DNA of 39,002 bases from Candidatus Kuenenia stuttgartensis (GTDB lineage Bacteria > Planctomycetota > UBA11346), in contig CAMCMZ010000032.1 of the NCBI GenBank assembly GCA_945876185.1, positions 1-39,002 on the forward strand, read 5' to 3'. The notes under the pieces were generated by a model. The model worked only from the letters and a program-made list of their open reading frames with translations. It was not told where the DNA came from and did no database searches. Of the stretch, positions 6,024-35,747 are shown piece after piece. The translations under genes and the position numbers were made by a program. How positions within the stretch are numbered: the stretch's first letter is position 1; each line of letters begins with the position of its first letter.

Positions 6024-6024
6024 C

Positions 6025-17098: not shown

Positions 17099-18043
17099 AT
17101 GAACCCCGCCACCGCCCCCACCCCCTCTGCCTCTGCCTCTGCCTCCGACTCCGCCTCTGCCTCCGCCACTGCCAGCCCCACCGCCGCTGATCTCAGCCTG
17201 GATGCCGCCACGCTCGACCTCGCGCGGGCGGCACGGATCTATGCCGAGCACGGCTGCGTGATCGTGCGCGGCCTGCACCGCCACACCGTCGCGGCCGTCG
17301 CGGTCGACGTCCAGCGCGCCACCGACGAGGCCTATCGTCTGGCCGACAAGGCCGTGCGCAGCGAGGAAGGCTGGTGGCTGGGTGGCAACCTGTTCATCCC
17401 CGCCGCACCCGGATCGGCGCGTGAACGCCAGCTCATGCTGGTCGGCCTGGGTTACCGCCGCAGCGCAGCGATGCTGCGCGCCGCGCTCGAACCGGCGGCG
17501 TGCGACCTCGCCGCCGCCATTTTGGGGCCGGATGTCGAACTGATGGACGACGGGCAGATCGTCTCGAAAGAGCCCTCCGGCGGCCACGCCAAGCACATGC
17601 ATCAGGACAGCGCCTATTTCCAGCACGCCGGCCTGGGCCCGGCCGCCTGCCTGACCTACCTCATCGACACCGACCTGGTCAATGGCGCCCTCCACGTCGT
17701 CCCCGGTTCGCACCGGCTGGGCTACCTGCCGCACCTCGACACGACGTCGCACCTCGGCCTCGATCCGCAGACCTGGAGCATCGAACGCGGCACGCCGATC
17801 ATCGGCAAAGCCGGCGATGCGATCTTCTTCCACCAGCACTGCATCCACGGCAGCCCGTCCAACCGCTCCAAGGCCGCACGCCCGGTCTGCATCCACCGCT
17901 ACCGCGCGATCGGCGACCGCATCGTCGCCCACGCCACCACCGCGGCCAACCGCGCCCATTCCGGAGCCGATTCAGCGGCCGAGCGCGAACGCGCCGTGCA
18001 GCGCCTGGTCGTGCGCGGCTTCCGTACGATGGAGCTCGCATGA
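17099..18043 (+). CDS. Phytanoyl-CoA dioxygenase (PhyH) family Fe(II)/2-oxoglutarate oxygenase
   Basis: A 314-residue non-haem iron, 2-oxoglutarate-dependent oxygenase. The iron-binding facial triad is visible as H168 and D170 (KHMHQDSAYFQH) and H250 (QHCIHGSPSNRS). NGALHVVPGSHRLG is the typical PhyH core strand. Residues 8-30 are a Ser/Ala/Thr low-complexity tract encoded by near-repeats of CCTCTG, perhaps a non-native extension; the fold seems to start near residue 33. PhyH members hydroxylate or demethylate varied small molecules. The stop codon overlaps the ATG of the next gene (ATGA), so the two are translated together. The divergent AraC gene is the likely regulator. Confidence 0.88.
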   Translation: MNPATAPTPSASASASDSASASATASPTAADLSLDAATLDLARAARIYAEHGCVIVRGLHRHTVAAVAVDVQRATDEAYRLADKAVRSEEGWWLGGNLFIPAAPGSARERQLMLVGLGYRRSAAMLRAALEPAACDLAAAILGPDVELMDDGQIVSKEPSGGHAKHMHQDSAYFQHAGLGPAACLTYLIDTDLVNGALHVVPGSHRLGYLPHLDTTSHLGLDPQTWSIERGTPIIGKAGDAIFFHQHCIHGSPSNRSKAARPVCIHRYRAIGDRIVAHATTAANRAHSGADSAAERERAVQRLVVRGFRTMELA

Positions 18044-19077: not shown

Positions 19078-19086
19078 CGCTACCGG

Positions 19087-20058
19087 CTACTTCTTCTGTC
19101 CGACCAGGGTGCCCAGTTCCTCGGGCGTGACCTGCACCGCAAGGATGCGCCGGTCGGGTCCCGCGCCCAGGAGCGCGTTGCACGGCAGGATCGGCCAGCC
19201 CCAAGATGTGCGCCAGGTTTTCCAGGTCTCGGCTTCATTGGCGTCGATCCAGACCAGGTTGGCCCCATGGCCATCCGGCAGGCCGTTGAACAGCGCAGCC
19301 GCGCGTAAGGGCTGTGCCGCAGCGGCGGCGACCACCACCTTTACCGTGTCGCGCAAGCCGGCCTTGGTGATGGCATCCAGGTGGCGTTTGACCAGGAAGA
19401 TCAGGTCTTCATCGACGTTTCCGGCGAAGATCCACCATTGCCAAGCCGTGGGCAGCGTCACCGGATCGTCGGGGCCGACCAGGCCCTTGCCCTGGGTGCG
19501 CCCGGCCGGTTTGCCGATGCGGGCGTGGAAATCGCAGAGGTCGACCAGCCAGCGCGATTCGGGCACGGCCTGGGCGCGGGCGGTGGCGATCGCGCGGGCG
19601 TCGGCGGCGCGGCCCTGGCGCAGGCGCACGAGCACCCGCAAGTCCTGACCGTTGCCCTGGAAAGCCGGGTATTCCTTCAGCTGCAAGCGGTCGAGCAGCG
19701 CTTCGACCACCGCGATGCGGTCGGCGGGACCAAGCTCGAACTGCCAGTCGGCAAGGTAGTAGAGGGCCTTGTTCTCATGCCGGCTTCCCACCGATTCATC
19801 GAGGAAACGCTGGAGATCCCCGCGCAGACCTCGCTTGAGGGCCAGGCGTTCCGCCGGCGGCAAGGCCTTCGCCGCAGCAAGCCGGTCGTCGATCTGCTGC
19901 GCCAGCGCCAGCAGCGCTTGGTCACGCGCCTCGCCCCGCGCCTGGATCGCCCGCTGGGTCTCGGCCGGATCGCGAGGAGCGCTGACGCAAGCGGTCAGCA
20001 TGACAGCGACGACGAGCGCGAGCGGAAGCGAGACGGCGCAACGGTCCAGACTGGGCAT
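19087..20058 (-). CDS. Predicted lipoprotein of unknown function
   Basis: A 323-residue protein with a lipoprotein signal: a short basic start, a hydrophobic core (LPLALVVAVM) and the lipobox LTAC near residue 24, so it is probably anchored to a membrane and exported. The mature part is helical and Ala/Arg/Leu-rich, with no domain I recognise. A conserved-looking stretch DLVGP-type loop and TAWQWWIFAGNVDEDLIFLVKRHLD stands out. It starts 7 bp after the pyrF stop and so belongs to the same operon. An overlapping GTG start at 20077-20079 is possible. It converges on the UroD-family gene with only 9 bp between the stop codons. Confidence 0.7.
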   Translation of the reverse strand: MPSLDRCAVSLPLALVVAVMLTACVSAPRDPAETQRAIQARGEARDQALLALAQQIDDRLAAAKALPPAERLALKRGLRGDLQRFLDESVGSRHENKALYYLADWQFELGPADRIAVVEALLDRLQLKEYPAFQGNGQDLRVLVRLRQGRAADARAIATARAQAVPESRWLVDLCDFHARIGKPAGRTQGKGLVGPDDPVTLPTAWQWWIFAGNVDEDLIFLVKRHLDAITKAGLRDTVKVVVAAAAAQPLRAAALFNGLPDGHGANLVWIDANEAETWKTWRTSWGWPILPCNALLGAGPDRRILAVQVTPEELGTLVGQKK

Positions 20059-23604: not shown

Positions 23605-24150
23605 ATGACACCAATACCGTCTGCCCCCCTGTCGGATGCCTTGCGCTATAAGCGCTCGCGTTTCACCACGCGTTTACCGCTCGATCGGCGCTACACGGCG
23701 GCCCACGTCTGGCTCGCTCCCGAGGCCGGCGCCACCGGCGCAGCGGACCGGGTGTGGCGGATCGGCTTCACCAAGTTCGCAGCACGGATGCTGGGCGAGG
23801 TGGTCGAGTTCGGCTTCGAGGTCGAACCCGGTGGAGCGGTCGAACTCGGCGCGGTGATCGGCTGGATGGAGGGCTTCAAGGCCTCGACCGATCTCTACAG
23901 CGTCGTCGACGGGACGTTCGTCGCGGCGAATCCTGGACTCACCGAACACCCGGAACGCGCCCACGCTGATCCGTACGGCGAGGGCTGGATCTACCGGGTC
24001 AGCGGCACGCCTGATCCCGAATCCGTCGATGCGCAAGGTTACGCCGCGATCCTCGACCGCGCCATCGACCGCATCCAGGGCGAGGCCCACGCCGAGGAAT
24101 ACACCGAGAACGAACCCGACGAGGATCCCGCATGCCGACCGACCAAGTGA
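23605..24150 (+). CDS. GcvH-like lipoyl-carrier protein
   Basis: A 181-residue homologue of glycine cleavage H protein. The order of motifs matches GcvH: VWRIGFTKFAARMLGEVV (50-67), EPGGAVELGAVIGWMEGFKASTDLYS with the lipoyl lysine at K92, DGTFVAANPGL, and the diagnostic DPYGEGWIYRV (122-132). It is longer than GcvH (about 130 residues), with about 30 extra N-terminal residues and an acidic C-terminal tail. No gcvT, gcvP or lpd is present. Instead it overlaps a CobW-type GTPase gene by 19 bp and heads a series of Fe-S and isoprenoid genes. A carrier role outside glycine cleavage is therefore likely, as known for LbpA in sulfur oxidation. The 234 bp upstream holds only weak promoter-like and hairpin sequences. 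Confidence 0.8.
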   Translation: MTPIPSAPLSDALRYKRSRFTTRLPLDRRYTAAHVWLAPEAGATGAADRVWRIGFTKFAARMLGEVVEFGFEVEPGGAVELGAVIGWMEGFKASTDLYSVVDGTFVAANPGLTEHPERAHADPYGEGWIYRVSGTPDPESVDAQGYAAILDRAIDRIQGEAHAEEYTENEPDEDPACRPTK

Positions 24151-25409
24151 TTCCCAGCGTGGCGGCCAACTACGTCATGATCGGCGGCTTCCTGGGCGCG
24201 GGGAAGACCACCGCGATGGCGCGTTTCGCCGAATGGCTGCGCGGTCGCGGCCACAAGGTCGGCCTGATCACCAACGACCAGGGCTCGCAACTGGTCGATT
24301 CGTTCACCCTGCGCTCGCGCGGCTTCAAGGTCGAAGAAATCCCCGGCGGCTGCTTCTGCTGCCGCTTTGATTCCCTGCGCGAGGCCGCCGCGCGCCTGCA
24401 AGCAGCGGACCGCCCTGACACCTTCCTCGCCGAACCGGTGGGCAGTTGCACCGATCTCGTCGCCACCGTGACATACCCCCTGCGGCGGATGTACGGCGAT
24501 AACTTCCGCGTCGCCCCGCTGAGCGTGGTCATCGACCCGATCCGCGCGGCGCGCATCCTGGGCGTGGAGCTTTCGGCGCCAGCAACGCTTGCCGGACTGG
24601 CCACGCCTGCCGGACAGGCCACGCCTGCCGGACAGGCCACGCCTGCCGGACAGGCCACGCTTGCCGGACATGCAATCCGGCGGACGAGCACGTTCTCCCC
24701 CAAGGTCGCCTACATCTACCTGAAGCAGCTCGAAGAGGCCGACGTCCTGGTGATCAACAAGATCGACAGCCTGAACGCTGCGGATCTCGCGCGACTGGAC
24801 GCCGCCCTGGCCGAACGCTTTCCCCGTGCGACCCGCTTCGCGATCAGCGCCCGCGCCGGCACCGGCCTGGAAGCCTGGTTCACCCATGTCCTGGGCACCG
24901 TCCAGGGCGCGGGTCTTCTGCGCGAATCGGCCATGGCCGTCGACTATGACACCTACGCCGAAGGCGAGGCACTGCTCGGCTGGCTAAACGCGACGGTCGC
25001 CGTGGATGCCGGCGCGGCAGCGACGGCCGACGGCAACCGCCTGGTCGCGGACCTGTTGTCAGCCGTGCAGCAGCGCCTGCCCGGGATCGAGATCGCGCAT
25101 CTCAAGATGACCCTGTCGCCCGATGACGGCAGCGGTGAACTCGCGACCGGCAATTTGGTGCGCGGTGATCTGGCCCCCGAGATGGGTACACAGCTCAGCG
25201 ACGGCATCGGCAGGGCCCAGCTCATCATCAACCTGCGCGCCGAGGCCGCCCCCGACCTACTGCGCAGCGCGGTGGAAAGCGCTCTCGCTGCGCGAATCGT
25301 TGCTGATCCGGGCCTGAAACTCACCGTCGAGCACCTGGAGCACTTCCGCCCCGGCCGCCCGACCCCGACCCATCGCCTCGCCAACGCAGGAACAGGCGCC
25401 CAAGCATGA
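24132..25409 (+). CDS. CobW/COG0523-family GTPase (metallochaperone-like)
   Basis: A 425-residue G3E GTPase. Walker A is GGFLGAGKTT (18-27), the family metal-binding CxCC motif is CFCC (73-76) in EIPGGCFCCRFDSL, and NKID (208-211) gives base specificity. Relatives deliver or insert metals such as Zn, Co or Ni, usually near the proteins they serve. Residues 151-180 are a low-complexity insert of five hexapeptides (TPAGQA type) encoded by 18-bp tandem repeats, placed between the G3 and G4 regions. The C-terminal half (from about 270) does not look like the usual CobW_C domain and may be specific to this system. Start ATG 24132 has a GAGG site and overlaps the GcvH-like gene; the stop overlaps the next ATG. 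Confidence 0.88.
   Translation: MPTDQVIPSVAANYVMIGGFLGAGKTTAMARFAEWLRGRGHKVGLITNDQGSQLVDSFTLRSRGFKVEEIPGGCFCCRFDSLREAAARLQAADRPDTFLAEPVGSCTDLVATVTYPLRRMYGDNFRVAPLSVVIDPIRAARILGVELSAPATLAGLATPAGQATPAGQATPAGQATLAGHAIRRTSTFSPKVAYIYLKQLEEADVLVINKIDSLNAADLARLDAALAERFPRATRFAISARAGTGLEAWFTHVLGTVQGAGLLRESAMAVDYDTYAEGEALLGWLNATVAVDAGAAATADGNRLVADLLSAVQQRLPGIEIAHLKMTLSPDDGSGELATGNLVRGDLAPEMGTQLSDGIGRAQLIINLRAEAAPDLLRSAVESALAARIVADPGLKLTVEHLEHFRPGRPTPTHRLANAGTGAQA
24585..24674 (+). repeat. Five 18-bp tandem repeats within the CobW-type GTPase gene
   Basis: Unit ACGCCTGCCGGACAGGCC: three identical central copies (24603-24656) flanked by a diverged copy on each side. Each unit encodes a hexapeptide (TLAGLA, three TPAGQA, TLAGHA), so the repeat is in frame. 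Identical central units indicate recent expansion. Confidence 0.9.
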
Positions 25410-25849
25410 GCGAATCCCCCACCATCCTGTATTGCCACTGCGCCCACTCCCAGGTTGTGCCGGACGCGACCAAGCGCCCGGTGCTGGAGGCGCTGGCGCG
25501 TTCGGGCAAAGCCTTCGAAGCCGTCGCCGACCTGTGCGAGCTTTCCGCCCGCAAGGATCCGTCGCTGCCGCGCCTTTTGGGCCGGCCCGGCACCCAGATC
25601 ATCGCCTGCCACCGTCGCGCCGTCTCCTGGCTGATGCACGCCGCGGGCACCGAACTGCCGAAAGACACCGTCGTCCATAACATGCGCGAATCGAAACCGG
25701 ACGACATCGTGAGCAAGGTTTTCAATCCTGCGCTCAACGTCGACACGCCGGCCGCCGTAGGGATTGATCCTGCCGCCGAGGCGGCCGCTGCACCGGCTGC
25801 GCCCGCACTGGTTGCGCCTGACACGCTGCTCACGAAGGCCATGCCATGA
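25406..25849 (+). CDS. Small four-cysteine protein of unknown function
   Basis: A 147-residue soluble protein. The first 95 residues look folded and contain four cysteines: C10 and C12 (YCHCAHSQVVP), C44 (VADLCELSARKDP) and C68 (IIACHRRAVSWLMHAAG). That number could bind an Fe-S cluster or zinc, or do thiol chemistry. The last 45 residues are Ala/Pro-rich and probably a flexible tail. I do not recognise a named domain. The ATG overlaps the GTPase stop codon, and its own stop overlaps the ferredoxin start (ATGA at both joints), so it is made in step with both and probably works directly with the ferredoxin. Confidence 0.75.
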   Translation: MSESPTILYCHCAHSQVVPDATKRPVLEALARSGKAFEAVADLCELSARKDPSLPRLLGRPGTQIIACHRRAVSWLMHAAGTELPKDTVVHNMRESKPDDIVSKVFNPALNVDTPAAVGIDPAAEAAAAPAAPALVAPDTLLTKAMP

Positions 25850-26703
25850 TTGCCTCCAATCCCAAGAACGCCCTGGCGCTCGCCCTGTACGAAGGTCCCG
25901 GCGCCCAACCCTTCGCCCCGGATCAGCGCGTCAGCCTGCTGTCCACGCTGCTCGGCAAGGGCTACCGCGTCAGCGTCACTGGCGAAAACACGGGCGACGG
26001 AGGCCTCCGTGGGGGCGAAGTCACCTGCGACCAGCCGAATCTGCTCGTTCTCGGCCGTTTCGGCGCTGTGCCCGAGCCGCGCCAGGATGCCAGCGGCATC
26101 GCGGTGCGTTTCGCCGATGTCGACGGCCAGACCGCCGAAGCCGTGCTGGAAAAAGTAAAGGCGGTCGAAACCGAGGTCGGCGGCACCGCGCCGGGCACCT
26201 GGAAGCCGTGGTTCCCGGTCATCGACTACGACCGCTGCACGAACTGCATGCAATGCCTGAGCTTCTGCCTGTTCGACGTCTACGGCGTCGACAAGGGCGG
26301 CAAGCTCGCTGTCTCCAACCCGTCGAACTGCAAGACCAACTGCCCGGCCTGCTCGCGCGTCTGCCCCGAAGTTGCGATCGTCTTCCCCAAGTACAAATCC
26401 GGTCCGATCAACGGCGAACCGGTCAACAGCGACGACATCCGCCGCGAGCACATGAAGGTCGACATCTCGGCCCTGCTCGGCGGCGACATCTACCAGGCCC
26501 TGCGCGATCGTTCGATCAAGGCCAAGTCGCGCTTCTCCAAGGAGCGCGACAGCGATCGCGCCCTGGCCGAACGCCTGCGCTGCCTGGAAAAACTCAAAGA
26601 GGCGCTGGACATTCCGGACGAGCTCCTGCAATCCCTGCCCGACCAGGATGCGATCAGCGCCAAGAAGATGATCGCCATGCGCCGCGCCGGCCTCACTGCC
26701 TAG
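25846..26703 (+). CDS. Ferredoxin-like protein with two [4Fe-4S] motifs
   Basis: A 285-residue protein with an N-terminal domain of about 120 residues that I do not recognise. A ferredoxin module follows, with cluster ligands C131, C134, C137, C141 and C162, C166, C169, C173-P. The second motif is CxxxCxxCxxxCP, slightly different from the bacterial ferredoxin pattern. The C-terminal 100 residues are charged and helical (KSRFSKERDSDRALAERLR). It probably passes electrons within the complex or pathway of the neighbouring genes, a redox enzyme being expected. Translation is coupled to the small cysteine protein upstream. The polyprenyl synthase fusion follows after 37 bp. Confidence 0.85.
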   Translation: MIASNPKNALALALYEGPGAQPFAPDQRVSLLSTLLGKGYRVSVTGENTGDGGLRGGEVTCDQPNLLVLGRFGAVPEPRQDASGIAVRFADVDGQTAEAVLEKVKAVETEVGGTAPGTWKPWFPVIDYDRCTNCMQCLSFCLFDVYGVDKGGKLAVSNPSNCKTNCPACSRVCPEVAIVFPKYKSGPINGEPVNSDDIRREHMKVDISALLGGDIYQALRDRSIKAKSRFSKERDSDRALAERLRCLEKLKEALDIPDELLQSLPDQDAISAKKMIAMRRAGLTA

Positions 26704-26740
26704 TCCTGCCGCCACTTCGTGCGCCTTTGATCGGAACCCC

Positions 26741-28507
26741 ATGACCACGACCGTCGTATCGCCCAGCGTCCCCGTCGCTCCGACGTTGACCATCCCCAAG
26801 CCGGTGGCGGTGCCGATCATCCGCCCGCCCAAGGACAACATCCCGGCCACGTTGGGCGAACGGCAGCACATCCGCACCCTGGTCGAACGCTATGTGACCG
26901 AGCACAACCCGACCCCGCCGCTGCCCATCGCCGAACTGCGCATCCACGCCCAAGCGATGGTGAAGGCCTATGACCTGAACCCCAAGCACGTCGAATACTT
27001 GGGCGTCCTGATCAACAACGAACTGTGGAAGGACCAGCTCGCGACCATTCCCTACGAACGCCGCCTGCTGCTGCTGCCCAAGTGCCTGCGCATCGAGGAA
27101 AAGTGCCCGGCGCCGTTCGATGAGTTCGGCCTGCTCTGCAAGCAGTGCGGCCTGTGCACCATCCAGGATCTGCAAGCTGAGGCCGAGCGCCTCGGCTACG
27201 CCGTGCTGGTGGCCGAAGGCTCGGCCATCGTGATGTCGATTGTCGAGACCGGCAAGATCGACGCGATCGTCGGGGTGAGCTGCATTTCCGTGCTCGAACG
27301 CGCGTTTCCCTACATGGAGGCCGCCGCCATCCCGGGCGTCGCCATCCCGCTGCTGCAAGACGACTGCATCGACACCGGTGTCGACCTCGACTGGGTGTGG
27401 GAAGCCATCCACCTCACCAGCGAGGACCGCACCCGCCGCCTTGATCTTGATGGCCTGCGCAAGCAGGTCGACTCGTGGTTCACCCCCGCCGCGATCGACG
27501 CGATGATGGGCGTGCCCGAGGGCCGCACCCGCATCCTCGCCCGCGACTGGCTCGGCAAGACCGGCAAGCGCTGGCGCCCCTTCCTGACCGTCGCCGCCTG
27601 GCGCGCCTGTGTTGCGGACAAGGACGCGCCGATCCCGCCCGACGTGCACAAGCTCGCCCTCGCGGTGGAATGCTTCCACAAGGCGTCGCTCATCCACGAC
27701 GACATCCAGGACGGCGATGAGATGCGCTACGGCGAGCGCACCATGGCCGCCGAGGTCGGCGTGCCGATGGCGCTGAACGTCGGCGATTTCCTCCTCGGCG
27801 AAGGCTACCGCCTGCTCGCCGAGGCCGCCCCGCCGCATCTGGTCGGCCGCATGGTCGCACTCACCGGCCACGGCCAGAGCCGCCTGTGCATCGGCCAGGG
27901 CAGCGAACTCGAATGGAAGACCGCGCCGGAAGACCTCGCGGTGCTCGACGTGCTCAACATCTTCCGCGGCAAGACCGCGCCCGCGTTCGACGTGGCCCTG
28001 GCCCTCGGCGCGATGCAGGCCGGCGCCGGCGAATCCGAGATCAACACCATCGTCCGCTACGGCGACTCGCTCGGCATCGCCTACCAGATCAACGACGACC
28101 TCGACGACATCCTCGACATCGCCAGCAACGACCTCGACGCCGAACGCCCGACCCTGCCCATGGCCGTCGCGCTCGAACGCGCCAAAGGCCCGCTGCGCGA
28201 CGAGGTCCTGGCCTGGTGGCGCCGCGACGCCAATCGCCCGAAGGCCCCCCGCATGCGCGAGATCATGACCGAACTCAACGTGGAAACCCACGTCCGCACC
28301 CTGCTCGGCTCATTCAAAGATCGCGCCGTGCAATCGCTGCGCGACCTGGAAAACGAAAGCTTGAAGGGCCTCTTGCGCCGTATCATGGGCAAGATCTTCG
28401 CCGAGAAGGTCGGCGCCTGGTGCAAGGAATCGCAGGAGGCGCAGGGAATCGTCGTGCCCGAGACCACGAAAGCCGAGGCCGTTGCGCCGGCCGTCGCCAC
28501 GGCGTGA
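26741..28507 (+). CDS. DUF116-polyprenyl diphosphate synthase fusion
   Basis: A 588-residue two-part protein. Residues about 80-230 match DUF116: a cysteine-rich start (C115, C122, C133, C136, C139) followed by an alpha/beta part with VLVAEGSAIV, DAIVGVSCISVLERAFP (C181) and PLLQDDC (C209). Residues 260-540 are a trans-isoprenyl diphosphate synthase: GKTGKRWRPFL (273-283), the first Asp-rich motif DDIQD (320-324), GQGSELEWK, and the second DDLDD (452-456), all needed to elongate allylic diphosphates with IPP. The last 40 residues are an Ala/Glu-rich tail. DUF116 has no settled function, and its cysteines suggest a cluster or metal. Chain length cannot be told by eye. It is co-directional with, and probably in, the operon starting at 23605. 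Confidence 0.9.
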   Translation: MTTTVVSPSVPVAPTLTIPKPVAVPIIRPPKDNIPATLGERQHIRTLVERYVTEHNPTPPLPIAELRIHAQAMVKAYDLNPKHVEYLGVLINNELWKDQLATIPYERRLLLLPKCLRIEEKCPAPFDEFGLLCKQCGLCTIQDLQAEAERLGYAVLVAEGSAIVMSIVETGKIDAIVGVSCISVLERAFPYMEAAAIPGVAIPLLQDDCIDTGVDLDWVWEAIHLTSEDRTRRLDLDGLRKQVDSWFTPAAIDAMMGVPEGRTRILARDWLGKTGKRWRPFLTVAAWRACVADKDAPIPPDVHKLALAVECFHKASLIHDDIQDGDEMRYGERTMAAEVGVPMALNVGDFLLGEGYRLLAEAAPPHLVGRMVALTGHGQSRLCIGQGSELEWKTAPEDLAVLDVLNIFRGKTAPAFDVALALGAMQAGAGESEINTIVRYGDSLGIAYQINDDLDDILDIASNDLDAERPTLPMAVALERAKGPLRDEVLAWWRRDANRPKAPRMREIMTELNVETHVRTLLGSFKDRAVQSLRDLENESLKGLLRRIMGKIFAEKVGAWCKESQEAQGIVVPETTKAEAVAPAVATA

Positions 28508-28558
28508 GCGATTTCGACGACTGATGTTGCATGGGCTCGGTTGGACCCAAACGTTTGA

Positions 28559-29734
28559 CTAATTGAGCATGGTCCACTGATGACATAACAGGTACCGACA
28601 TTCGAGGATGGCTCGCAACGATGGCGGCACTGGCCTCCCATCCGATTGCCAACGCTGAAATTCGCGCTTCACCAATGCTGCGTGGAAAGGTGAATTGGCT
28701 GCTCGCAAGGCCGCCGCGCAGCGCAAGGATTCAGGAGTTGCCGGATCTGCCGCCAAGGACAAGTTGCATCGCGTATTCCAACCATCGACCTGCGACACCA
28801 GGATCATCATCACAATCGGCAATGCAGCAGCCGACAACCAACGCCATCCTTTGGGGCCAGGAATCATCAGGCTGCCCAAGAAGACCAACAGGAAGGGCAG
28901 GGCGAATTGTGTCGCCATCCATGCGGCTGTACCCCGACGGGTGATCAGCACATCCATCTGCCAACTCGGGGTCGCATAGCGCTCTCCCGCAAAATGCACG
29001 AGATCGTCCCATCCACCTTGTTTGGTTTTTGTTCCCGGTTGCGCTGGAATCGCGAGAAACATCGCACCATCGCCATTGTGCTGCGGTCGGAATCCGGGTC
29101 CGCTGTATTGTCGGACGATTATTCCCAAATCATTGGACCAGCCATCCAACACGGAAATATCAGAAGATCCGTCCTTTCTTACCGGAGCCCAGCCGTCGAT
29201 CCGCAATTGTAAGTCGGTTCGAATCATTCCAGGTTCGCCCACTACGGAAGATGGATGCCAGTGTGGTGGCCTGGAAAAATGATCCAGAGTCCCAGTCAAA
29301 TGATGCCCCGAAAAATCCAAGCGCATCGGCGCAACCTGCTCCCAGCCCTCTTCCTTACGCCAACGCACCACGTTGTGAGCACCGATGGTGGGCAGGATGG
29401 TGTCCCGATCGCGCATGAACCAATAGAGATGGAGATCGCAATCGCCGATGGCAAATGGTGCAGCAAATGGAGTTGGATCGGGACCGCCCGGCAACCGCAT
29501 CGCCGTTTTTTGGGGGAAGTCAGACATCTTCGGCACCGGCAATGTGCTGACCGGAATCGGTAGTGTGATCTTCGGCATCGTTTCGATCTGGATCGTGTCA
29601 ACCACGACCACCACGAGCGCGACGACACCCACCGCAGCTCCGCTCCAATGCAGACCGTTGCGCCAGTTTGCCGGTGCCAGTCGCCACTGGGCGAGCAGGA
29701 TCACCACCATCAGGATCAGCAAGGCAAAAGACAT
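28559..29734 (-). CDS. Membrane protein of unknown function in the GntR/ABC operon
   Basis: A 391-residue protein with two N-terminal transmembrane helices (SFALLILMVVILLAQWRL and about 28-48), then a soluble region of about 220 residues. Two more helices follow (ATQFALPFLLVFLGSLMIPG; LSAAALPIVMMILVSQV) and a charged tail of about 70 residues. The soluble part is rich in Trp, Gly and Asp and shows no domain I know. ATG 29734 follows a GGAGG site and begins 11 bp after the permease stop, so it is the last gene of the operon and probably a partner of the transporter. Its end converges on the polyprenyl synthase fusion with 51 bp between them. Confidence 0.7.
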   Translation of the reverse strand: MSFALLILMVVILLAQWRLAPANWRNGLHWSGAAVGVVALVVVVVDTIQIETMPKITLPIPVSTLPVPKMSDFPQKTAMRLPGGPDPTPFAAPFAIGDCDLHLYWFMRDRDTILPTIGAHNVVRWRKEEGWEQVAPMRLDFSGHHLTGTLDHFSRPPHWHPSSVVGEPGMIRTDLQLRIDGWAPVRKDGSSDISVLDGWSNDLGIIVRQYSGPGFRPQHNGDGAMFLAIPAQPGTKTKQGGWDDLVHFAGERYATPSWQMDVLITRRGTAAWMATQFALPFLLVFLGSLMIPGPKGWRWLSAAALPIVMMILVSQVDGWNTRCNLSLAADPATPESLRCAAALRAANSPFHAALVKREFQRWQSDGRPVPPSLRAILECRYLLCHQWTMLN

Positions 29735-29745
29735 GGGACCTCCGA

Positions 29746-30450
29746 TCAGCGCCGGGCGCCAGCACTTGGTTGCTTGAAAAGGTAGAAAATGAAGCCGAGT
29801 CCTGCGGCTAGCACAATCAAGACCAGATTCAGGAAGAGATAATGCACCTCGGTCAACGTGACACCATTCTGGATCGCCCATGCCTGCATGCCGCCAAAGG
29901 CGCCTGCCACCAATGCCGGGCCCATGAAGAGATACCCAATGGCGCGACGGCTGCCGCCGACAGACAGAAGTCCGGCAAGCGGAGCCAGGAACACCAACGG
30001 CGGTCCAGTCACCAGGAATGGGAAAAATCGGTCATCGCATTGCGGTTGGGAATCATAGATGCCGCCATCGGTGAACATTGCCCAGAATGCGCTCGGGATC
30101 TGAAATCGCGCCGCCAGGGCGCAGGCGCCGCCCAGCAACATCAACCACAGGCAGGTCGGCACGACCTTGGCCACCCAACGCGAACGCCGGCTGGGCGGCA
30201 GGGCGAGCAGCCATTCCTCGGTGCCGTCCGTCACTTCGCGTCCAGCGGGATAGGCGAGGAAGAACGCGTATAGTATCAGCATGGCCAGCGCCCCTCTCGG
30301 TTCGCCGGCAATGGGCAGCAGGAACAACGTCCATAACAGACCAACCAGTCCACCAGCGAACCACGGCCGCTGCCACGAGCGTTCCCAACCCCAGGCCGGA
30401 TGTCGGCACAGCGGTGTCCACCAGCCCTGGGATTCAGCCACGGTTTGCAT
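29746..30450 (-). CDS. ABC transporter permease-like membrane protein
   Basis: A 234-residue protein with about six hydrophobic segments (for example GGLVGLLWTLFLLPIAG, LAMLILYAFFLAYPAG, LVFLAPLAGLLSVGG, FLNLVLIVLAAGLGFIFYLF). The pattern and the motif GTEEWLLALPPSRRSRWVAKV resemble ABC-2 type export permeases. Its start overlaps the ATPase gene by 17 bp and has a GGAG ribosome-binding site, so the two are coupled and form one transporter. The substrate is unknown. YtrA-linked transporters in other bacteria respond to cell-wall-active antibiotics, but that is only a family precedent. Confidence 0.75.
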   Translation of the reverse strand: MQTVAESQGWWTPLCRHPAWGWERSWQRPWFAGGLVGLLWTLFLLPIAGEPRGALAMLILYAFFLAYPAGREVTDGTEEWLLALPPSRRSRWVAKVVPTCLWLMLLGGACALAARFQIPSAFWAMFTDGGIYDSQPQCDDRFFPFLVTGPPLVFLAPLAGLLSVGGSRRAIGYLFMGPALVAGAFGGMQAWAIQNGVTLTEVHYLFLNLVLIVLAAGLGFIFYLFKQPSAGARR

Positions 30451-31369
30451 GTTGGGTCTCCTCGGTTTGGCGGCGTGAGAGGATGTAGGCTTCTTCCAGG
30501 CTCACCGGTGTGAAGATCACCCGGATGCCGGGCATGGCCTGCATGGGTGCCAAAACTGATTCGGATCCGATCAGCACCCCGGACGCCACCGGCCCGAGGA
30601 CGTTCATGCCATGCAGCGGCGGCAGGGGAACCGCGTCCCAGGCCATGCCGTCAGCCAGGATGACCTGCACCCGCCGCACATTTTCCTGGAATGCTGCCAC
30701 TGCGACCAGTTCCGGCCGACCATCGAAGCACAGCAAATGGGAAGCGCCCTGTTCCAAATCCACCAGCAGATGCGTGCTGTAGATCACGGTGGTCGCGCCA
30801 TCATCCACGGTTTCCAGGAGGACCTGCACCAGATCGCGGCGGGCGAGCGGATCCAATCCGGCAGCGGGTTCATCCAGCAACAGCAAGCGCGCCTGGGTGG
30901 CGAGGGTAAGGGCGCAAGCCGCGAGACGCTGCTGCCCGCCAGAGAATCCCCCGACCGGCCGCTGCGGGTCGAGTTGGGACCGGGCGCAGATCGCGGCGAA
31001 GCGTGCGGCACTCCAGGTCGGATAACAAATAGCTACGATTTCCGCCAGATTCCGCAGGGATTGCTGCGCCGGCAAACGCTGATCCTGGACCACCATCGCC
31101 ACCGCCTGGCGCTGTTCTGTCCCTGCACCCCAGGGCATATATCCCAGCACTTGCAACGTGCCCGAGGTCGGCGGCAACAAGCCGGCGCATAGCCGCAGGA
31201 ACGTGCTTTTTCCCGAGCCATTGCGTCCGACCAAGCCGACGATGCGCCCGGCGGGAATGTTCACGGACAGACCGGCCAGAGCCCGGATCGATCCGAACGA
31301 TCGGGTCAGTCCGGTGGCGACGATGGCGGAGGCGGCATCAGGGGGATCAATGGAATCAGGGGGATGCAC
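30434..31369 (-). CDS. ABC transporter ATP-binding protein
   Basis: A 311-residue ATPase: Walker A GRNGSGKST, signature FSGGQQRLAACALTLATQ, Walker B LLLLDEPAAGLDPL, and the switch histidine in TTVIYSTHLL. The final 80 residues form a C-terminal extension typical of export ATPases. GTG 31367-31369 is chosen because GAGGAGG lies 7 bases upstream. This makes the gene overlap the GntR gene by 14 bp. An upstream TTG at 31384 would place that ribosome-binding site inside the coding region. It pairs with the permease at 29746-30450. Confidence 0.92.
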   Translation of the reverse strand: MHPPDSIDPPDAASAIVATGLTRSFGSIRALAGLSVNIPAGRIVGLVGRNGSGKSTFLRLCAGLLPPTSGTLQVLGYMPWGAGTEQRQAVAMVVQDQRLPAQQSLRNLAEIVAICYPTWSAARFAAICARSQLDPQRPVGGFSGGQQRLAACALTLATQARLLLLDEPAAGLDPLARRDLVQVLLETVDDGATTVIYSTHLLVDLEQGASHLLCFDGRPELVAVAAFQENVRRVQVILADGMAWDAVPLPPLHGMNVLGPVASGVLIGSESVLAPMQAMPGIRVIFTPVSLEEAYILSRRQTEETQHANRG

Positions 31370-31727
31370 GCAGGGCCTCCTCAATCAAGGTGCGGATGAG
31401 ATCGTCGTTGAGTCCTGCCTTGCGGGCAGCATCGACCAGGCGACGGGCGGAAGCGCGCATACCTTGGCCGATGCCAGCGGCAGCGTCTCCAGAAAGAAAT
31501 ACCCCAGCCCCGTGGCGCTGTTCGACCGTCCCGTTGGCCGCAAGTTCATCATAGGCCCGGATCACCGTGCCGGTGTTCACACCCAGGTGGCGGGCAAGTT
31601 CACGAATACTCGGCAAATGCGTTCCCGGCGGGAGCGCTCCTGCCGCAGCGAGGAAGCGCACCTGGTCAACGATCTGCCGGTAGGCCGGCACCCCGCTGCC
31701 GGGGCTGAGTTGAAAAGGGAGGGCCAT
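31356..31727 (-). CDS. GntR-family (YtrA type) transcriptional repressor
   Basis: A 123-residue protein with an N-terminal winged helix (about 12-78: PAYRQIVDQVRFLAAAGALP, LPSIRELARHLGVNTGTVIRAYDEL, GVFLSG) and a short helical C-terminal part of about 45 residues. This small size is typical of the YtrA subfamily, which represses its own ABC-transporter operon. ATG 31725-31727 gives the standard YtrA N-terminus (ALPFQLSPGSGVPAYRQI). It is the first gene of a four-gene operon, and a palindromic operator candidate lies 13 bp upstream of its start. Confidence 0.92.
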   Translation of the reverse strand: MALPFQLSPGSGVPAYRQIVDQVRFLAAAGALPPGTHLPSIRELARHLGVNTGTVIRAYDELAANGTVEQRHGAGVFLSGDAAAGIGQGMRASARRLVDAARKAGLNDDLIRTLIEEALRASP

Positions 31728-31739
31728 CGTCGTCTGTCC

Positions 31740-31763
31740 ACTGTTACGGTACACCACAACAGT
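31740..31763 (-). promoter_or_regulatory. Palindromic operator candidate for the GntR repressor
   Basis: A 24-bp dyad of the form ACTGTT-N2-GGT-N2-ACC-N2-AACAGT, perfect in all nine paired positions of the listed arms. It lies 13 bp upstream of the repressor ATG, where binding would block transcription or initiation. Position and symmetry fit autoregulation by a YtrA-type dimer. Confidence 0.65.
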
Positions 31764-32025
31764 TTGCGCGGCAAGCGACGGCTGGATCCGGCCCCAAGTC
31801 CAGCGGCCCCAAACATGGCCCAGCGATGAAACATGGGCCTGAATCCAACAACGAACCCCAGCGCACGACGTACAGGCTTCCTGGTCGCCGCCTGGAGCGG
31901 GCCGGTGGCCATTCCATCCTCGCTCAAGGCCGCGCCATGAACCTTCCACCATTCGCGTCGGTTGTGATTTCTACGCGGCATCCAGCCCGTTGCGCCGGCC
32001 GTCGCCAGCACCTGAATAGGCCGGC

Positions 32026-32943
32026 ATGAGCCTGCGCGTCGAGATGCTCCAGGTCGCCCGGGCCGCCCAGCGCGTGCTGGGCGAGTCCAGCGAGATCATC
32101 GCCGACTTCGCGGCCGGGCAGTGGAACGCTGATGGCGGCACGCGCGACCGCGCCGGAGCGAGCGACCTCTACTACACCGTCTTCGGCCTGGAGGCCGCAC
32201 TGGCCCTCGGCCAGCCGATCCCGGCGACGGTGGCCGGCTACCTGCGCGGCTTCGGCACCGGCGAGGATCTGTCGTTCGTGCATCGCGGCTGCCTGGCGCG
32301 GACGTGGTCGGTACTCGGCGGCATCGATCCGGCAGTGCGCGCGGCGCTGGTGGCCTCGATCTCGCCGCACCGGGCCAAGGACGGCGGCTACGCGCTCTGG
32401 CCCGGTGAAAACGTCGGCAGCGCCTATGGCGCGTACCTCGCCATCGCGGCCTTGCAGGATCTCGGCGAACCGTTGCCGGATGGCAACGTCATCGCTGCTT
32501 CGCTCGCAACCACTCGCGCCGCAGATGCGGGCTGGGCGAACCAGGCCATCGGCCCGGTAACGTTGGTGCCGCAGGGCACGACTCCGGCGACGGTCGCGGC
32601 GGTGCTCGCGCTGCATGCCTGCGGGATGCAGGCCGACGACGCTTGCGCCCAATGGCTGCTCGCACGCCAGCACCAGTCCGGCGGATTCCTGGCGCATCCC
32701 AGCGCGCCGCTGCCCGATCTGCTGTCGACCGCGACCGCGCTGCATGCGCTGGCCTGCCTGGAGGTCGTCCTGCCACCGGAGCGGGTCGAACTCGCGCTCG
32801 ACTTCGTCGATACCCTCTGGACCAACGCCGGCGCCTTCCATGGCCATTGGGCCGATGAGGCGATCGACATCGAGTACACGTATTACGGTCTACTCGCGCT
32901 CGGGCACCTGGCCCTGATGCAGCCGGCGGAAGCAGTCAGGTGA
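32026..32943 (+). CDS. Prenyltransferase/squalene-cyclase-fold (alpha/alpha barrel) protein
   Basis: A 305-residue protein made of repeated helical hairpins of the prenyltransferase beta/terpene cyclase type. Gly-rich QW-like turns recur: QWNADGGTRD (about 32-41), RAKDGGYALWPG (about 117-128), and ARQHQSGGFLAHP (about 217-229). The end EYTYYGLLALGHLALM is also typical of this fold. The acid motif DxDD of squalene-hopene cyclases is not seen, and the protein is about half the length of such cyclases. It may be a lyase or prenyl-binding subunit, or a single-domain cyclase. Its position in a plus-strand set with a polyprenyl synthase fusion supports an isoprenoid substrate. Start ATG 32026 is 298 bp from the divergent GntR gene. 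Confidence 0.72.
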   Translation: MSLRVEMLQVARAAQRVLGESSEIIADFAAGQWNADGGTRDRAGASDLYYTVFGLEAALALGQPIPATVAGYLRGFGTGEDLSFVHRGCLARTWSVLGGIDPAVRAALVASISPHRAKDGGYALWPGENVGSAYGAYLAIAALQDLGEPLPDGNVIAASLATTRAADAGWANQAIGPVTLVPQGTTPATVAAVLALHACGMQADDACAQWLLARQHQSGGFLAHPSAPLPDLLSTATALHALACLEVVLPPERVELALDFVDTLWTNAGAFHGHWADEAIDIEYTYYGLLALGHLALMQPAEAVR

Positions 32944-32951
32944 GAGAATTC

Positions 32952-32980
32952 ATGGCCACAAAGAGCACAAAGGTCACAAA
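32952..32980 (+). repeat. GGCCACAAAGAGCACAAAG-type repeat, left copy
   Basis: Starts 8 bp after the stop of the prenyltransferase-fold gene and carries the intact core GGCCACAAAGAGCACAAAG followed by GTCACAAA. Its inverted partner is at 33113-33142; together they bracket about 130 bp that has no apparent gene. Confidence 0.8.
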
Positions 32981-33112
32981 GGGGCCTGGGCGCGCGCGGC
33001 CCTGCTGCGCTGGGACCGGCACTTTTTCTGGGACGAGCACAATTGCCGCGCATCAGCAGCGTGATTGCGATCGTTCAGGAACGGTATCTCGATTCCCGGG
33101 TTCGCCGTCCAT

Positions 33113-33142
33113 CTTGTGCCCCTTTGTGCTCTTTGTGGCCAT
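33113..33142 (-). repeat. GGCCACAAAGAGCACAAAG-type repeat, right copy
   Basis: Inverted copy of 32952-32980 with one changed stretch (GGGGCACAAG in place of GTCACAAA). It ends 21 bp before the cysteine desulfurase ATG at 33164, so the element forms most of that gene's leader. Confidence 0.8.
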
Positions 33143-33163
33143 TCTTTCTTTGTCGGTCGCGGC

Positions 33164-34537
33164 ATGAGCGGGGACTCCTGCCCGGTCCCGCTTGCTGGCC
33201 CGTCGTGCGAGGCCACCGTGCGGCCCACCATCTACCTTGACCACAACGCGACGACGCCGGTCGACAAGCGCGTGCTGGTCGAGATGCTGCCGTATTTCAC
33301 TGGCAGTTTCGGCAATGCAGCGAGTGCGACGCACGGCCTCGGCCGCGAAGCCGCCGGTGCAGTCGAGTCCGCGCGCAGCGAAGTCGCCGCGCTGATACGG
33401 GCCGAACCCAAGGACGTGGTGTTCACCAGCGGTGCGACCGAGGCGATCAACCTGGCGCTGACCGGCGCGATGCGTGGCTACCGCGAGCGCGGCCGCCACT
33501 TGGTCACCGTCGCGACCGAGCACCGCGCGGTGCTGGAGACCTGCGAACGTCTGCGCGACGAGGGCTGCGAGGTCACCGTGCTGCCGGTCGACCGCCTCGG
33601 CCGGGTCGATCCCGCCGCAGTCGTCGCCGCGCTGCGGCCAGACACGGTGCTGCTCGCGTGCATGTTCGCCAACAACGAGATCGGCACGATCCACGACATC
33701 GCCGCACTCGGCCAGTTGACCCGCGCCGCTGGCGTGCTCTTCCACGTCGACGCCGCCCAGGCCCTGGGTAAGGAAGCGATCGACGTCGACGCGATGGGCA
33801 TCGACCTGATGTCGTTGTCGGCGCACAAGATCTATGGCCCCAAGGGTGTCGGCGCCCTGTACGTGCGCCGGCGGAACCCGCGCGTGCGCCTGACGGCGCT
33901 GATGTCCGGTGGCGGCCAGGAACGCGGCCTCAGGCCCGGCACCCTCAACGTCCCCGGCATCGTCGGCTTCGGTGTCGCCTGCGCCTTGGCGCGCGAGGCC
34001 CTGGATGCCGACCCTGGGAGCGCGCCGCTCCGCGGCGCTCAAGAGGCGCAGCCTGGGAGCGCGCCGCTCCGCGGCGCCCGTGAAACGCAGGAAAATACGG
34101 CAACCGAACGCGATCGCATCAGCCAGTTGCGCAACCGCCTATGGCAACGCCTGTCGTCTCTCGGCAACGTCGAACGCCTAGGCGACCCCGACCACGTCCT
34201 GGCCGGCACGCTGAGTGTGGCGATATACGGCGTCGATGCGCGCCGACTGCTCGTCGAAACGCCAACGATCGCCGCGTCGCTGGGCGCCGCCTGCGCGTCG
34301 GTGACACCAGAACCGTCGCACGTCCTGCGCGCGATCGGACTGAACTGGAGACAGGCCGAGGGCGTGGTGCGCCTCAGCCTCGGCCGCTTCACCACCGCCG
34401 CCGAGATCGACACCGCCGCTGATTTGCTCGCAGCGAACATCGCCCGGCTGCGCACGGCGACACCAACGCTCTCGCCTGCTCCTGCACTTTCGTCCGCTCC
34501 CGCACCTTCGTCCGCTCCCGCTACGTCAACGGTCTGA
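33164..34537 (+). CDS. Cysteine desulfurase (IscS/NifS family)
   Basis: A 457-residue PLP enzyme that removes sulfur from cysteine as an enzyme-bound persulfide. PLP lysine K222 lies in SLSAHKIYGPKG. The N-terminal IYLDHNATTP (23-32), GATEAINLAL, ATEHRAVLE and FHVDAAQALG are canonical, and the persulfide cysteine is C377 in SLGAACASVTPEPSHVLRAIG. Residues 284-309 are a two-copy 13-residue repeat inserted between the large and small domains. The tail (about 435-457) is an Ala/Pro/Ser repeat. ATG 33164 is used; GTG 33218 just before IYLDHNATTP is also possible. It is flanked by prenyltransferase-fold and radical SAM genes, so it may supply sulfur for their clusters or for a sulfur-containing product. 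Confidence 0.93.
   Translation: MSGDSCPVPLAGPSCEATVRPTIYLDHNATTPVDKRVLVEMLPYFTGSFGNAASATHGLGREAAGAVESARSEVAALIRAEPKDVVFTSGATEAINLALTGAMRGYRERGRHLVTVATEHRAVLETCERLRDEGCEVTVLPVDRLGRVDPAAVVAALRPDTVLLACMFANNEIGTIHDIAALGQLTRAAGVLFHVDAAQALGKEAIDVDAMGIDLMSLSAHKIYGPKGVGALYVRRRNPRVRLTALMSGGGQERGLRPGTLNVPGIVGFGVACALAREALDADPGSAPLRGAQEAQPGSAPLRGARETQENTATERDRISQLRNRLWQRLSSLGNVERLGDPDHVLAGTLSVAIYGVDARRLLVETPTIAASLGAACASVTPEPSHVLRAIGLNWRQAEGVVRLSLGRFTTAAEIDTAADLLAANIARLRTATPTLSPAPALSSAPAPSSAPATSTV
34013..34090 (+). repeat. Two 39-bp tandem palindromic repeats within the cysteine desulfurase gene
   Basis: Each unit starts with CCTGGGAGCGCGCCGCTCCG and is GC-palindromic (GCGCCGC-tc-CGCGGCGC). The period of 39 bp equals 13 codons, encoding PGSAPLRGAQEAQ and PGSAPLRGARETQ. 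The insertion keeps the frame and falls in a linker between domains. Confidence 0.85.
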
Positions 34538-34553
34538 CTCCAAGGAAATTTCT

Positions 34554-35747
34554 ATGCTGATGCGTCTCGCCTACCGTGGTCTCACCGAGATCCATCCCCG
34601 CCTGGCATGGAAGGCGGCATACCTGTACGCCTGGAAGGGCATGCGCGCGGTGTCGGCCTACAAGCGCCGGCTGAAAGACAAACAGCTCTTCCCGCCGTTC
34701 ATGTTCATCGCCCTGACCAACACCTGCAACCTGCGCTGTCAGGGCTGCTGGGTCGAAAAGGAAGGCACCGCCCACTACCTGCCCGAGGCCGACCTCGACG
34801 CGCTGATCGCCAGCGGGAAGCAGCAGAAGACCCACTATTACACCCTGCTCGGCGGCGAACCCTTCATGTACAAAGGCATCTGGGACATCTTCCGCCGGCA
34901 CAGCGACTGCTATTTCCAGGTCATCACCAACGGCATGCTGTTCACCGAAGAAAACGTCCGCCGCCTGCGCGAGGTCGGCAACGTCACGCCGCTCATCTCC
35001 CTCGATGGCTTCGGCGAGAACAATGACATGCGGCGCGGCAAGGGCGTGTTCGAGGCCGCCGACGAGGGCCTCAAGCGGCTGCAGAAGGCCAAGGTCCTCT
35101 TCGGCATCGCGACCACGACGACCGGCAAGAACATGGACGAGGTCATGAACGACCTCTACGTCGAGCACTTCATCAAGCGCGGCGCGATGTACCTGTGGTA
35201 CTACATCTTCCGCCCGGTCGGCGAGACGCCGCATCCCGAATACTGCATGCAGCGCGAGCAGATCGTCGAGATGCGCCGCCGCCTGCTCGCCCTCAGGAAG
35301 CGCCACCCGATCCTGCTCATCGATACCTATTGGACCGCCAAGGGCGAGGCCTTCTGCCCCGCCGCAACCGGACTCGGTTTCCACATCGGCCCGCAAGGCT
35401 CGATCGAACCCTGCCCACCGCTCTCGTTCGCCGTCGAAACCCTGAAGGACAACGGCGGCGACGTCTTCAAGACCATCAACGACAGCCGCTACCTGCGCGG
35501 CTTCCAGGACTTCGTGAAGAAGCGCACCAAGGGCTGCGTCATCCTGGAGCACCCGCAGGAGCTGGTCAAATTCATCAAGAGCCACGGCGCCCGCGACTTC
35601 AGCGGCCGCCCTGACGCGTTGGCCGAGATCAATGCCATCGTACCGCGCAACAGCCACCACCTGCCTGACGATGAGATCCCCGAGGACATGTGGCTGTACC
35701 GTTTCATGAAGAGCCAGGTGTTCTTCGGCATGGGGGCGTACGGGTGA
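34554..35747 (+). CDS. Radical SAM enzyme with SPASM-like C-terminal region
   Basis: A 397-residue radical SAM protein. The SAM [4Fe-4S] cluster ligands are C58, C62 and C65 in LTNTCNLRCQGCWVEK, followed by the GGEP motif (YTLLGGEPF). The region AFCPAATGLGFHIGPQGSIEPCPPLSF resembles the substrate or auxiliary-cluster part of SPASM/twitch enzymes. The basic N-terminal 45 residues with several Trp and Tyr may contact a membrane or a lipid. The general layout recalls HpnH-like lipid enzymes, but also peptide-modifying ones. ATG 34554 follows AAGGAAA and lies 16 bp after the cysteine desulfurase, so they share an operon. The reaction is unknown; modification of an isoprenoid made by the cluster is a reasonable guess. 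Confidence 0.85.
   Translation: MLMRLAYRGLTEIHPRLAWKAAYLYAWKGMRAVSAYKRRLKDKQLFPPFMFIALTNTCNLRCQGCWVEKEGTAHYLPEADLDALIASGKQQKTHYYTLLGGEPFMYKGIWDIFRRHSDCYFQVITNGMLFTEENVRRLREVGNVTPLISLDGFGENNDMRRGKGVFEAADEGLKRLQKAKVLFGIATTTTGKNMDEVMNDLYVEHFIKRGAMYLWYYIFRPVGETPHPEYCMQREQIVEMRRRLLALRKRHPILLIDTYWTAKGEAFCPAATGLGFHIGPQGSIEPCPPLSFAVETLKDNGGDVFKTINDSRYLRGFQDFVKKRTKGCVILEHPQELVKFIKSHGARDFSGRPDALAEINAIVPRNSHHLPDDEIPEDMWLYRFMKSQVFFGMGAYG

Follow-up and report, generated by a model that had tools for sequence, protein, structure and literature searches.

What do the genes at positions 23,605 to 35,747 of a 39,002-nucleotide stretch of Candidatus Kuenenia stuttgartensis DNA make together? The stretch, here called the window, is a whole contig (CAMCMZ010000032.1, our C32) of assembly GCA_945876185.1 (our G000), which holds 3.8 Mb in 123 contigs and is 81.7% complete. 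An initial annotation had read these genes as parts of an undescribed pathway in which an isoprenoid is made and then modified by redox or radical chemistry. Our analysis indicates that eight genes of the window, together with a squalene-hopene-cyclase-like DxDD enzyme (the cyclase) encoded elsewhere in the same genome, almost certainly form one system, a conclusion based on shared neighbourhoods and on the joint presence across genomes of a DUF116-polyprenyl synthase (the fusion) with a radical SAM enzyme and with the cyclase (phi 0.90 for each pair). The isoprenoid theme also holds, as the motifs of the polyprenyl synthase are intact and the DxDD cyclase recurs; these sequence features make it likely that the set produces a cyclised polyprenyl lipid.

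Gene content of the locus

The eight genes of the window are as follows, with the features on which each assignment is based.

23605..24150, plus strand: GcvH-like lipoyl carrier, lipoyl Lys 92 present (Pfam GCV_H, 61.7 bits)
24132..25409, plus strand: CobW/COG0523-type GTPase with CxCC (Pfam cobW, 76.7 bits)
25406..25849, plus strand: small four-Cys protein (CxC...C...C) with a predicted flavodoxin-like fold (conserved Cys, AlphaFold2)
25846..26703, plus strand: two-cluster [4Fe-4S] ferredoxin with extra N- and C-terminal parts (Fer4 families)
26741..28507, plus strand: DUF116 fused to a trans-polyprenyl diphosphate synthase (DUF116, 126.4 bits; polyprenyl_synt, 135.5 bits)
32026..32943, plus strand: alpha/alpha-toroid protein (the toroid) of the prenyltransferase/cyclase fold, without known catalytic motifs (Prenyltrans, 38.7 bits)
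33218..34537, plus strand, start revised from 33065: NifS/IscS-like cysteine desulfurase (Aminotran_5, 259 bits)
34554..35747, plus strand: radical SAM enzyme with a CX3CX2C motif and a twitch-like site for an auxiliary cluster (Radical_SAM, 73.1 bits)

All eight were found where the initial annotation had placed them, and in seven of them the assigned domains score above the Pfam cut-offs. The first five are indeed tightly linked: three junctions overlap, by 19, 4 and 4 bases, and the remaining one leaves a gap of 37. The desulfurase was correctly recognised; its listed start at 33065 was too early, the probable start being a GTG at 33218 that yields the usual N-terminus. Between the fifth and sixth genes lie four open reading frames (ORFs) on the minus strand, encoding an ABC ATPase, a GntR regulator and two proteins without a Pfam family, and the G+C content of this stretch is lower (61.4% versus 67%).

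Shared presence across genomes

Genome-by-genome profiles of the fusion, the radical SAM enzyme, the cyclase, HpnH and true squalene-hopene cyclase (SHC) were compiled over 294 genomes of the phylum. E-value cuts were set by eye at gaps, the weakest match kept and the next one being 1.7e-46 and 3.5e-26 for the fusion and 3.9e-88 and 5.4e-59 for the radical SAM enzyme. The 27 weaker of 95 genomes with a fusion match, which matched in the synthase half only, and the 18 weaker of 76 genomes with a radical SAM match, relatives of 28–35% identity, were thereby left out. The fusion was present in 68 genomes, the radical SAM enzyme in 58 and the cyclase in 64. Fusion and radical SAM enzyme occurred together in 58 genomes, with 10 containing the fusion only and none the radical SAM enzyme only (phi 0.90); fusion and cyclase were shared by 61, with 7 containing only the former and 3 only the latter (phi 0.90). 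These values are close to that of the control pair, HpnH and true SHC (98 both, 7 HpnH only, 3 SHC only; phi 0.93). The fusion itself was only weakly associated with HpnH (39 both, 29 fusion only, 66 HpnH only; phi 0.25) and with true SHC (37 both, 31 fusion only, 64 SHC only; phi 0.23). The initial annotation had named a failure of the parts to co-occur in other genomes as the outcome that would count against a single system; co-occurrence held for synthase, radical SAM enzyme and cyclase across genomes, and for the other partners by neighbourhood only.

In the 58 genomes that share both, the radical SAM gene lies within 15 kb of the fusion in 34, farther away on the same contig in 9 and on another contig in 15. 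Because the two genes are thus separated in 24 of 58 genomes, the joint profile does not reflect mere linkage. Starting from 30 fusion loci without a strong radical SAM match beside them, some on short contigs, we checked 21 genomes for a distant copy and found one in 16. The ferredoxin accompanies the distant radical SAM gene in 8 of 13 stretches (L177–L182, L184 and L185), and one of these, L185, contains the complete series of GcvH-like, CobW, four-Cys, ferredoxin and radical SAM genes. Since the redox genes join a distant radical SAM gene in this way, and since fusion, toroid and cyclase sit together in the Chthoniobacter flavus locus L057, the genes appear to fall into two modules, a terpenoid one and a redox/radical one. 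The set is accessory, as a genome of the same genus (G009, 94% complete) shows no fusion, radical SAM enzyme or cyclase at the limits used. Spread of the fusion on plasmids was considered and rejected, no match being obtained at E 1e-20 among 72,556 plasmid records.

Conservation of the neighbourhood

A contig scan with the fusion as query, the neighbourhood search that the initial annotation had proposed, yielded 80 loci in records labelled Planctomycetes, Verrucomicrobia and Acidobacteria, and 20 further planctomycete stretches centred on the fusion were also read. All partner families recur beside the fusion in both collections. The loci and genomes are mutually related, and L073 and L074 are identical in length and gene coordinates. 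Where ORFs overlapped, clustering favoured those matching families of the window, which helps every partner except the cyclase in the 80-locus set; the same preference was applied to the 20 stretches, with the cyclase also favoured. Counts are given below for all 80 loci (incomplete contigs counted in), for the 37 of these with at least 6 kb upstream and at least 5.5 kb downstream of the fusion, and for the 20 stretches.

Radical SAM enzyme: 50 of 80; 24 of 37; 9 of 20
Toroid: 42 of 80; 23 of 37; 9 of 20
Ferredoxin: 37 of 80; 21 of 37; 12 of 20
Four-Cys protein: 31 of 80; 20 of 37; 5 of 20
CobW: 28 of 80; 17 of 37; 6 of 20
GcvH-like protein: 24 of 80; 18 of 37; 12 of 20
Cyclase: 16 of 80; 11 of 37; 17 of 20
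NifS: 16 of 80; 14 of 37; 3 of 20

The next most frequent family was present in 8 of the 80 loci, and all eight partners occurred together in 8 of the 37 full-flank loci. In L034 and L035, whose fusions are 69 and 68% identical to that of the window, the genes follow one another in the order GcvH, CobW, four-Cys, ferredoxin, fusion, toroid, cyclase, NifS and radical SAM enzyme, with no ABC operon between the halves. The proposal that the two halves of the window belong together and that the ABC operon stands outside the system is therefore supported by the contiguity of the halves in these loci and by the recurrence of the partner families around the fusion. We rejected the ABC/GntR operon as a part of the pathway on the same grounds, since it is absent between the halves in L034 and L035 and not among the recurrent families. 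Several planctomycete stretches lack the CobW and four-Cys genes, which therefore may not be essential.

Two stretches were read from Chthoniobacter flavus Ellin428, L057 and L177, and between them they show seven of the nine families, all but CobW and the four-Cys protein. Ellin428 is a cultured strain, so the product can be sought there directly. Contigs of metagenome-assembled genomes titled Akkermansia muciniphila or Klebsiella pneumoniae (L038, L041, L055 and others) also carry the locus; these titles seem to be automatic labels, not true taxonomy, and were not relied upon.

A separate DxDD cyclase and a toroid protein without catalytic motifs

The initial annotation had assigned a prenyltransferase/cyclase fold to the protein at 32026..32943. 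The fold is supported by the Pfam score and by profile matches in the PDB, the best of which are protein prenyltransferase beta subunits, including that of Rab geranylgeranyltransferase (E 8.8e-12). Catalysis as a cyclase is not: the sequence contains no DxDD, and its six conserved acids, each present in 49 or 50 of 51 rows, sit elsewhere (here and below, conserved residues were counted per family in aligned rows of homologues). At two of the three zinc-ligand positions of protein prenyltransferases (those of the Cys and His), the toroid has Leu 233 and Tyr 50 when aligned to Rab geranylgeranyltransferase. Given these replacements and the missing DxDD, the toroid protein may not be an enzyme.

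The list of eight genes was correct as far as it went; it missed the squalene-hopene-cyclase-like enzyme, which provides the main argument for ring formation. This ninth family recurs beside relatives of the fusion with its DxDD intact. It is absent from the window and encoded elsewhere in G000 in two copies, C72:210-2000 and C41:24833-26602, both with DxDD. The family matches squalene-hopene cyclase 1gsz over its full length (E 4e-91, profile positions 36–614), and DxDD is present in 35 of 35 rows and the His at the partner position in 34, as in class II members of the SHC superfamily. The C72 copy scores 94.4 bits against the hopene-cyclase cut-off of 431.1 (TIGR01507), and 14 cluster cyclases have FC(R/K)GW where the one presumed true SHC row (L064:17800) has FDVDN. 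In the stretches read around the two copies, which at C72 covered the downstream side because the gene begins 93 bases from the contig end, the only sign of another family of the set was a weak radical SAM match (4e-07) near C41.

Two further loci deserve mention in this context. In the acidobacterial-labelled L064, an apparent true squalene-hopene cyclase (17800-19737) lies about 3.5 kb beyond the cluster cyclase (12425-14278). In L057, a short ORF with a DGDCPMC motif (13360-13773) sits between the toroid and cyclase genes and is a possible extra thiol-redox part.

The fusion and the radical SAM enzyme

Both halves of the fusion are well supported. DUF116 (PF01976) scores 126.4 bits against a cut-off of 25, and its seven Cys are each present in 99 of 100 rows. 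The synthase domain (PF00348) scores 135.5 bits against a cut-off of 27 and retains both Asp-rich motifs: D320, D321, D324, D453 and D456 are invariant in 100 rows, and D452 is present in 86 and replaced by Asn in 14. A315-S316 precede the first Asp-rich motif in all 100 rows; read by the rule that relates these positions to chain length, they suggest a product of C20 or longer. A second, diverged fusion, 34% identical, was noted at L131 (G105:C1:6745949-6747352), apart from the other genes, in a genome that already has one.

In the radical SAM enzyme, C58, C62, C65, C268, G282, C287 and C328 are present in 56 of 56 rows, forming the CX3CX2C core, a C268-X13-G-X4-C287 site that follows the auxiliary-cluster pattern CX9-15GX4C, and C328; there is no SPASM match in Pfam. 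No NCBIfam cut-off is reached among the best 25 of 61 matches, and among PDB structures the profile matches SkfB best (6efn, E 9.9e-18), mainly over the radical SAM core.

The lipoyl carrier and the accessory proteins

An ordinary role of the GcvH-like protein in glycine cleavage was rejected, as its scores fall below the NCBIfam cut-offs for GcvH (62.9 of 115.85 bits for TIGR00527 and 72.8 of 117 for PRK01202) and the genome has a separate canonical GcvH on contig C66, which shares 34% identity with it over 80 residues. The lipoyl lysine K92 is kept in 39 of 39 rows. Lipoylation is possible in G000, judging from its genes for LipA and for one protein of the BPL/LplA/LipB family.

The redox proteins are similarly well conserved: the ferredoxin retains eight Cys in 51 of 51 rows, and the four-Cys protein (147 residues), for which no Pfam or NCBIfam family was matched, retains its four in 38 of 38 and was modelled by AlphaFold2 with a predicted local distance difference test score of 82. 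CobW shows the P-loop and CxCC, with C74, C76, C77 and C106 present in 34 of 34 rows. It is longer in the window (425 residues) than in the listed relatives (370–399) and contains a tandem repeat at 24585-24670 (18 bp x 4.8) whose unit is a whole number of codons. Repeats of the same kind occur in the NifS gene at 34013-34090 (39 bp x 2) and 34478-34521 (18 bp x 2.4), and similar short repeats are found in the C72 cyclase copy.

NifS retains the pyridoxal phosphate lysine K255 and the catalytic C410 (numbered from 33065) in 21 of 21 rows and scores below the IscS equivalog cut-off (441.4 of 548 bits for PRK14012). The initial annotation had suggested that sulfur might be delivered to the isoprenoid through the lipoyl arm. 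The counts speak rather for a supply of cofactors than for a product that contains sulfur: in the full-flank loci NifS (14 of 37) is less constant than every other partner but one, and it is found in 3 of the 20 planctomycete stretches.

Proposed pathway

The best overall explanation, which we regard as evenly poised between right and wrong, is that the set makes a cyclised polyprenyl lipid that is modified by the radical SAM enzyme, with electrons passing through the Fe-S proteins and the lipoyl arm. The synthase half of the fusion would build an all-trans polyprenyl diphosphate of C20 or longer, and the DxDD cyclase would protonate its far end and close the rings, the motif-less toroid holding or passing the chain. 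The radical SAM enzyme would then take a hydrogen from the cyclised chain or add to it; that the cyclised lipid is its substrate seems rather probable. Redox chemistry on the polyprenyl product is suggested by the attachment of a Cys-rich domain to the synthase and by the tied presence of cyclase and radical SAM enzyme. The two-cluster ferredoxin, the four-Cys protein and the Cys-rich DUF116 domain would ferry the electrons, and the lipoyl arm may, somewhat short of even likelihood, belong to this relay. More doubtfully, the dihydrolipoyl arm of the GcvH-like protein might donate hydrogen and so quench the substrate radical, for which the model is HpnH, whose substrate radical is quenched by a thiol. 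NifS and the CobW GTPase would provide sulfur and metal for cofactors. The boldest version, in which the radical SAM enzyme acts on a cyclised polyprenyl chain with the protein-bound lipoyl arm as its working thiol, would make this the first lipoate-dependent terpenoid pathway; we consider it speculative. If true, hopanoids and sterols would be joined by another lipid, either a polycyclic membrane lipid or a redox lipid.

Several observations weigh against this pathway or parts of it. None of the eight partners is near the fusion in 9 of the 37 full-flank loci; L113, L114 and L130 have only fusion, cyclase, ferredoxin and GcvH-like protein, and several other planctomycete stretches have fewer. 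The radical SAM enzyme is missing from 10 of the 68 fusion genomes and the cyclase from 7, while no radical SAM enzyme turned up, at the limit used, in 5 of the 21 genomes checked for a distant copy (incomplete assemblies). Of the 13 stretches around distant copies, 5 (L183 and L186–L189) show the enzyme without any partner. The cyclase genes of G000 are not adjacent to the cluster, and either of the two copies could serve it. Because G000 encodes a squalene/phytoene synthase, the cyclase could use squalene instead of the product of the fusion. The association of the set with hopanoid genes is weak but significant (p about 1e-4 to 1e-5, values that are not independent because the genomes are related to each other). 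Finally, the lipoyl arm could accept electrons instead of giving them, since oxidation is common among radical SAM enzymes that have one auxiliary cluster.

Alternative explanations

The last point leads to the alternative that survives best, although we consider it unlikely: the radical SAM enzyme would desaturate or further cyclise the lipid, and the lipoyl disulfide and Fe-S proteins would remove the electrons. An auxiliary cluster accepts an electron in several known enzymes, and the cysteines of the putative cluster (C268-X13-G-X4-C287 and C328) are invariant in the 56 rows. The lipoyl carriers of the sHdr system likewise act in oxidation, as described in PMC6067878. An oxidative set is harder to reconcile with the neighbourhoods, in which no constant family stands as a dedicated electron acceptor (the next family reaches 8 of 80 loci; rarer neighbours were not annotated).

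It is improbable that the lipoyl carrier is itself the substrate, with the radical SAM enzyme, the toroid or both attaching the terpenyl chain to the dihydrolipoyl thiol through a thioether bond and so yielding a lipid-modified or lipid-carrying protein. SkfB, the best PDB match of the radical SAM enzyme, is a thioether-forming peptide maturase, the toroid best matches protein prenyltransferase beta subunits, and the GcvH-like protein is a common partner (18 of 37 loci and 12 of 20 stretches). The SkfB match, however, covers chiefly a radical SAM core that is common to many families, and the toroid has Leu and Tyr at two of the three zinc-ligand positions.

Slightly less probable again is the possibility that the lipoyl carrier, CobW, ferredoxin, NifS and radical SAM enzyme serve lipoate or Fe-S maturation, or an sHdr-like sulfur transfer, and are mere neighbours of a terpenoid operon. 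GcvH-like LbpA proteins are part of the sHdr system according to PMC6067878 and PMC10332631, and 2 of 16 four-Cys proteins touch a Se/S-carrier family (best E 0.099). Neighbourhood by itself would not explain why the radical SAM enzyme and the fusion are present together even when far apart, and no hdrB/hdrC-like protein is among the nine recurrent families.

A divergent hopanoid pathway, with hopene as the cyclase product and an HpnH-like addition of adenosine by the radical SAM enzyme, is very improbable. The kinship is real: the cyclase is a relative of squalene-hopene cyclase, the radical SAM enzyme matches HpnH weakly (42.7 bits), and the set is weakly associated with HpnH and true SHC (phi 0.23–0.27). 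Both enzymes nevertheless fall far below the curated cut-offs, the radical SAM enzyme with those 42.7 of 225.05 bits (TIGR03470) and the C72 cyclase as given above; the FC(R/K)GW of 14 cluster cyclases differs from the FDVDN of the one presumed true SHC row; and true HpnH (105 of 294 genomes) pairs with true SHC (101 of 294), at phi 0.93. Neither HpnH nor true SHC is present in 20 of the 55 genomes that have fusion, radical SAM enzyme and cyclase. G000 is among these, with no match to HpnH at E 1e-40 and none to true SHC at E 1e-100, and the hopanoid explanation is thus largely refuted. Chance adjacency of two unrelated operons, suggested by the divergent ABC operon that splits the halves in the window, is refuted by the co-occurrence counts over 294 genomes and by L034 and L035, where the fusion adjoins the toroid, followed by cyclase, NifS and radical SAM enzyme, and its probability is negligible.

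Relation to known systems

The fusion of DUF116 to a polyprenyl synthetase, exemplified by Psta_0175 of Pirellula staleyi, was named in one sentence by Makarova et al. 2015 (PMC5898192, section 3.6), who suggested electron transfer and a flavodoxin-like fold for DUF116; the same fusion is present here, and section 3.6 gives neither the partners nor a pathway. The sHdr sulfur oxidation system uses the GcvH-like LbpA outside glycine cleavage (PMC6067878, PMC10332631) and so shares with the present set a GcvH-like lipoyl protein that works with Fe-S redox proteins. The set differs in its linkage to terpenoid genes, and neither an sHdr subunit nor a special lipoate ligase was found among the scanned ORFs of the window or the recurrent families. 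A word search of the main texts of the same two papers found no mention of Planctomycetes or Verrucomicrobia. Relatives of Gemmata are called hopanoid producers in PMC6606645, where the passages on hopanoid producers do not treat the set.

Like the hopanoid pathway, the set combines a DxDD polyprene cyclase and a radical SAM enzyme in one genome; it differs in the scores of both enzymes, which are below the curated cut-offs, in a distribution only weakly correlated with that pathway, and in its extra fused synthase, lipoyl carrier and redox proteins. With SkfB and other auxiliary-cluster radical SAM enzymes, the radical SAM enzyme of the window has in common the CX3CX2C core and the C-X13-G-X4-C site, but it reaches no NCBIfam cut-off among the matches listed, and no peptide substrate gene was noticed.

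The claim that the pathway is undescribed is upheld in that our literature searches found no description of the whole set. Cyclase-based terpenoid synthesis is of a known kind; it is joined here by a redox module that we found described nowhere in the literature searched. Hopanoids and sterols are the two well-known polycyclic membrane lipids and serve as molecular fossils. If the proposed pathway is real, it would be a third route to lipids by way of a cyclase, seen in records labelled Planctomycetota, Verrucomicrobia and Acidobacteria, and would imply a lipid class so far unrecognised that might serve as a biomarker. Terpenoids would then join the few known uses of lipoate, and DUF116 would gain a function.

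Other features of the window

The genes at 681-7266 look like those of nitrate assimilation, comprising a molybdopterin oxidoreductase fused to a pyridine-nucleotide reductase with a BFD-like domain, an NMT1-like binding protein and a histidine kinase. On the minus strand, an ORF of 1129 residues (14570-17959) carries SRP54 (Ffh) domains at residues 647-1062, preceded by about 640 residues without a Pfam match.

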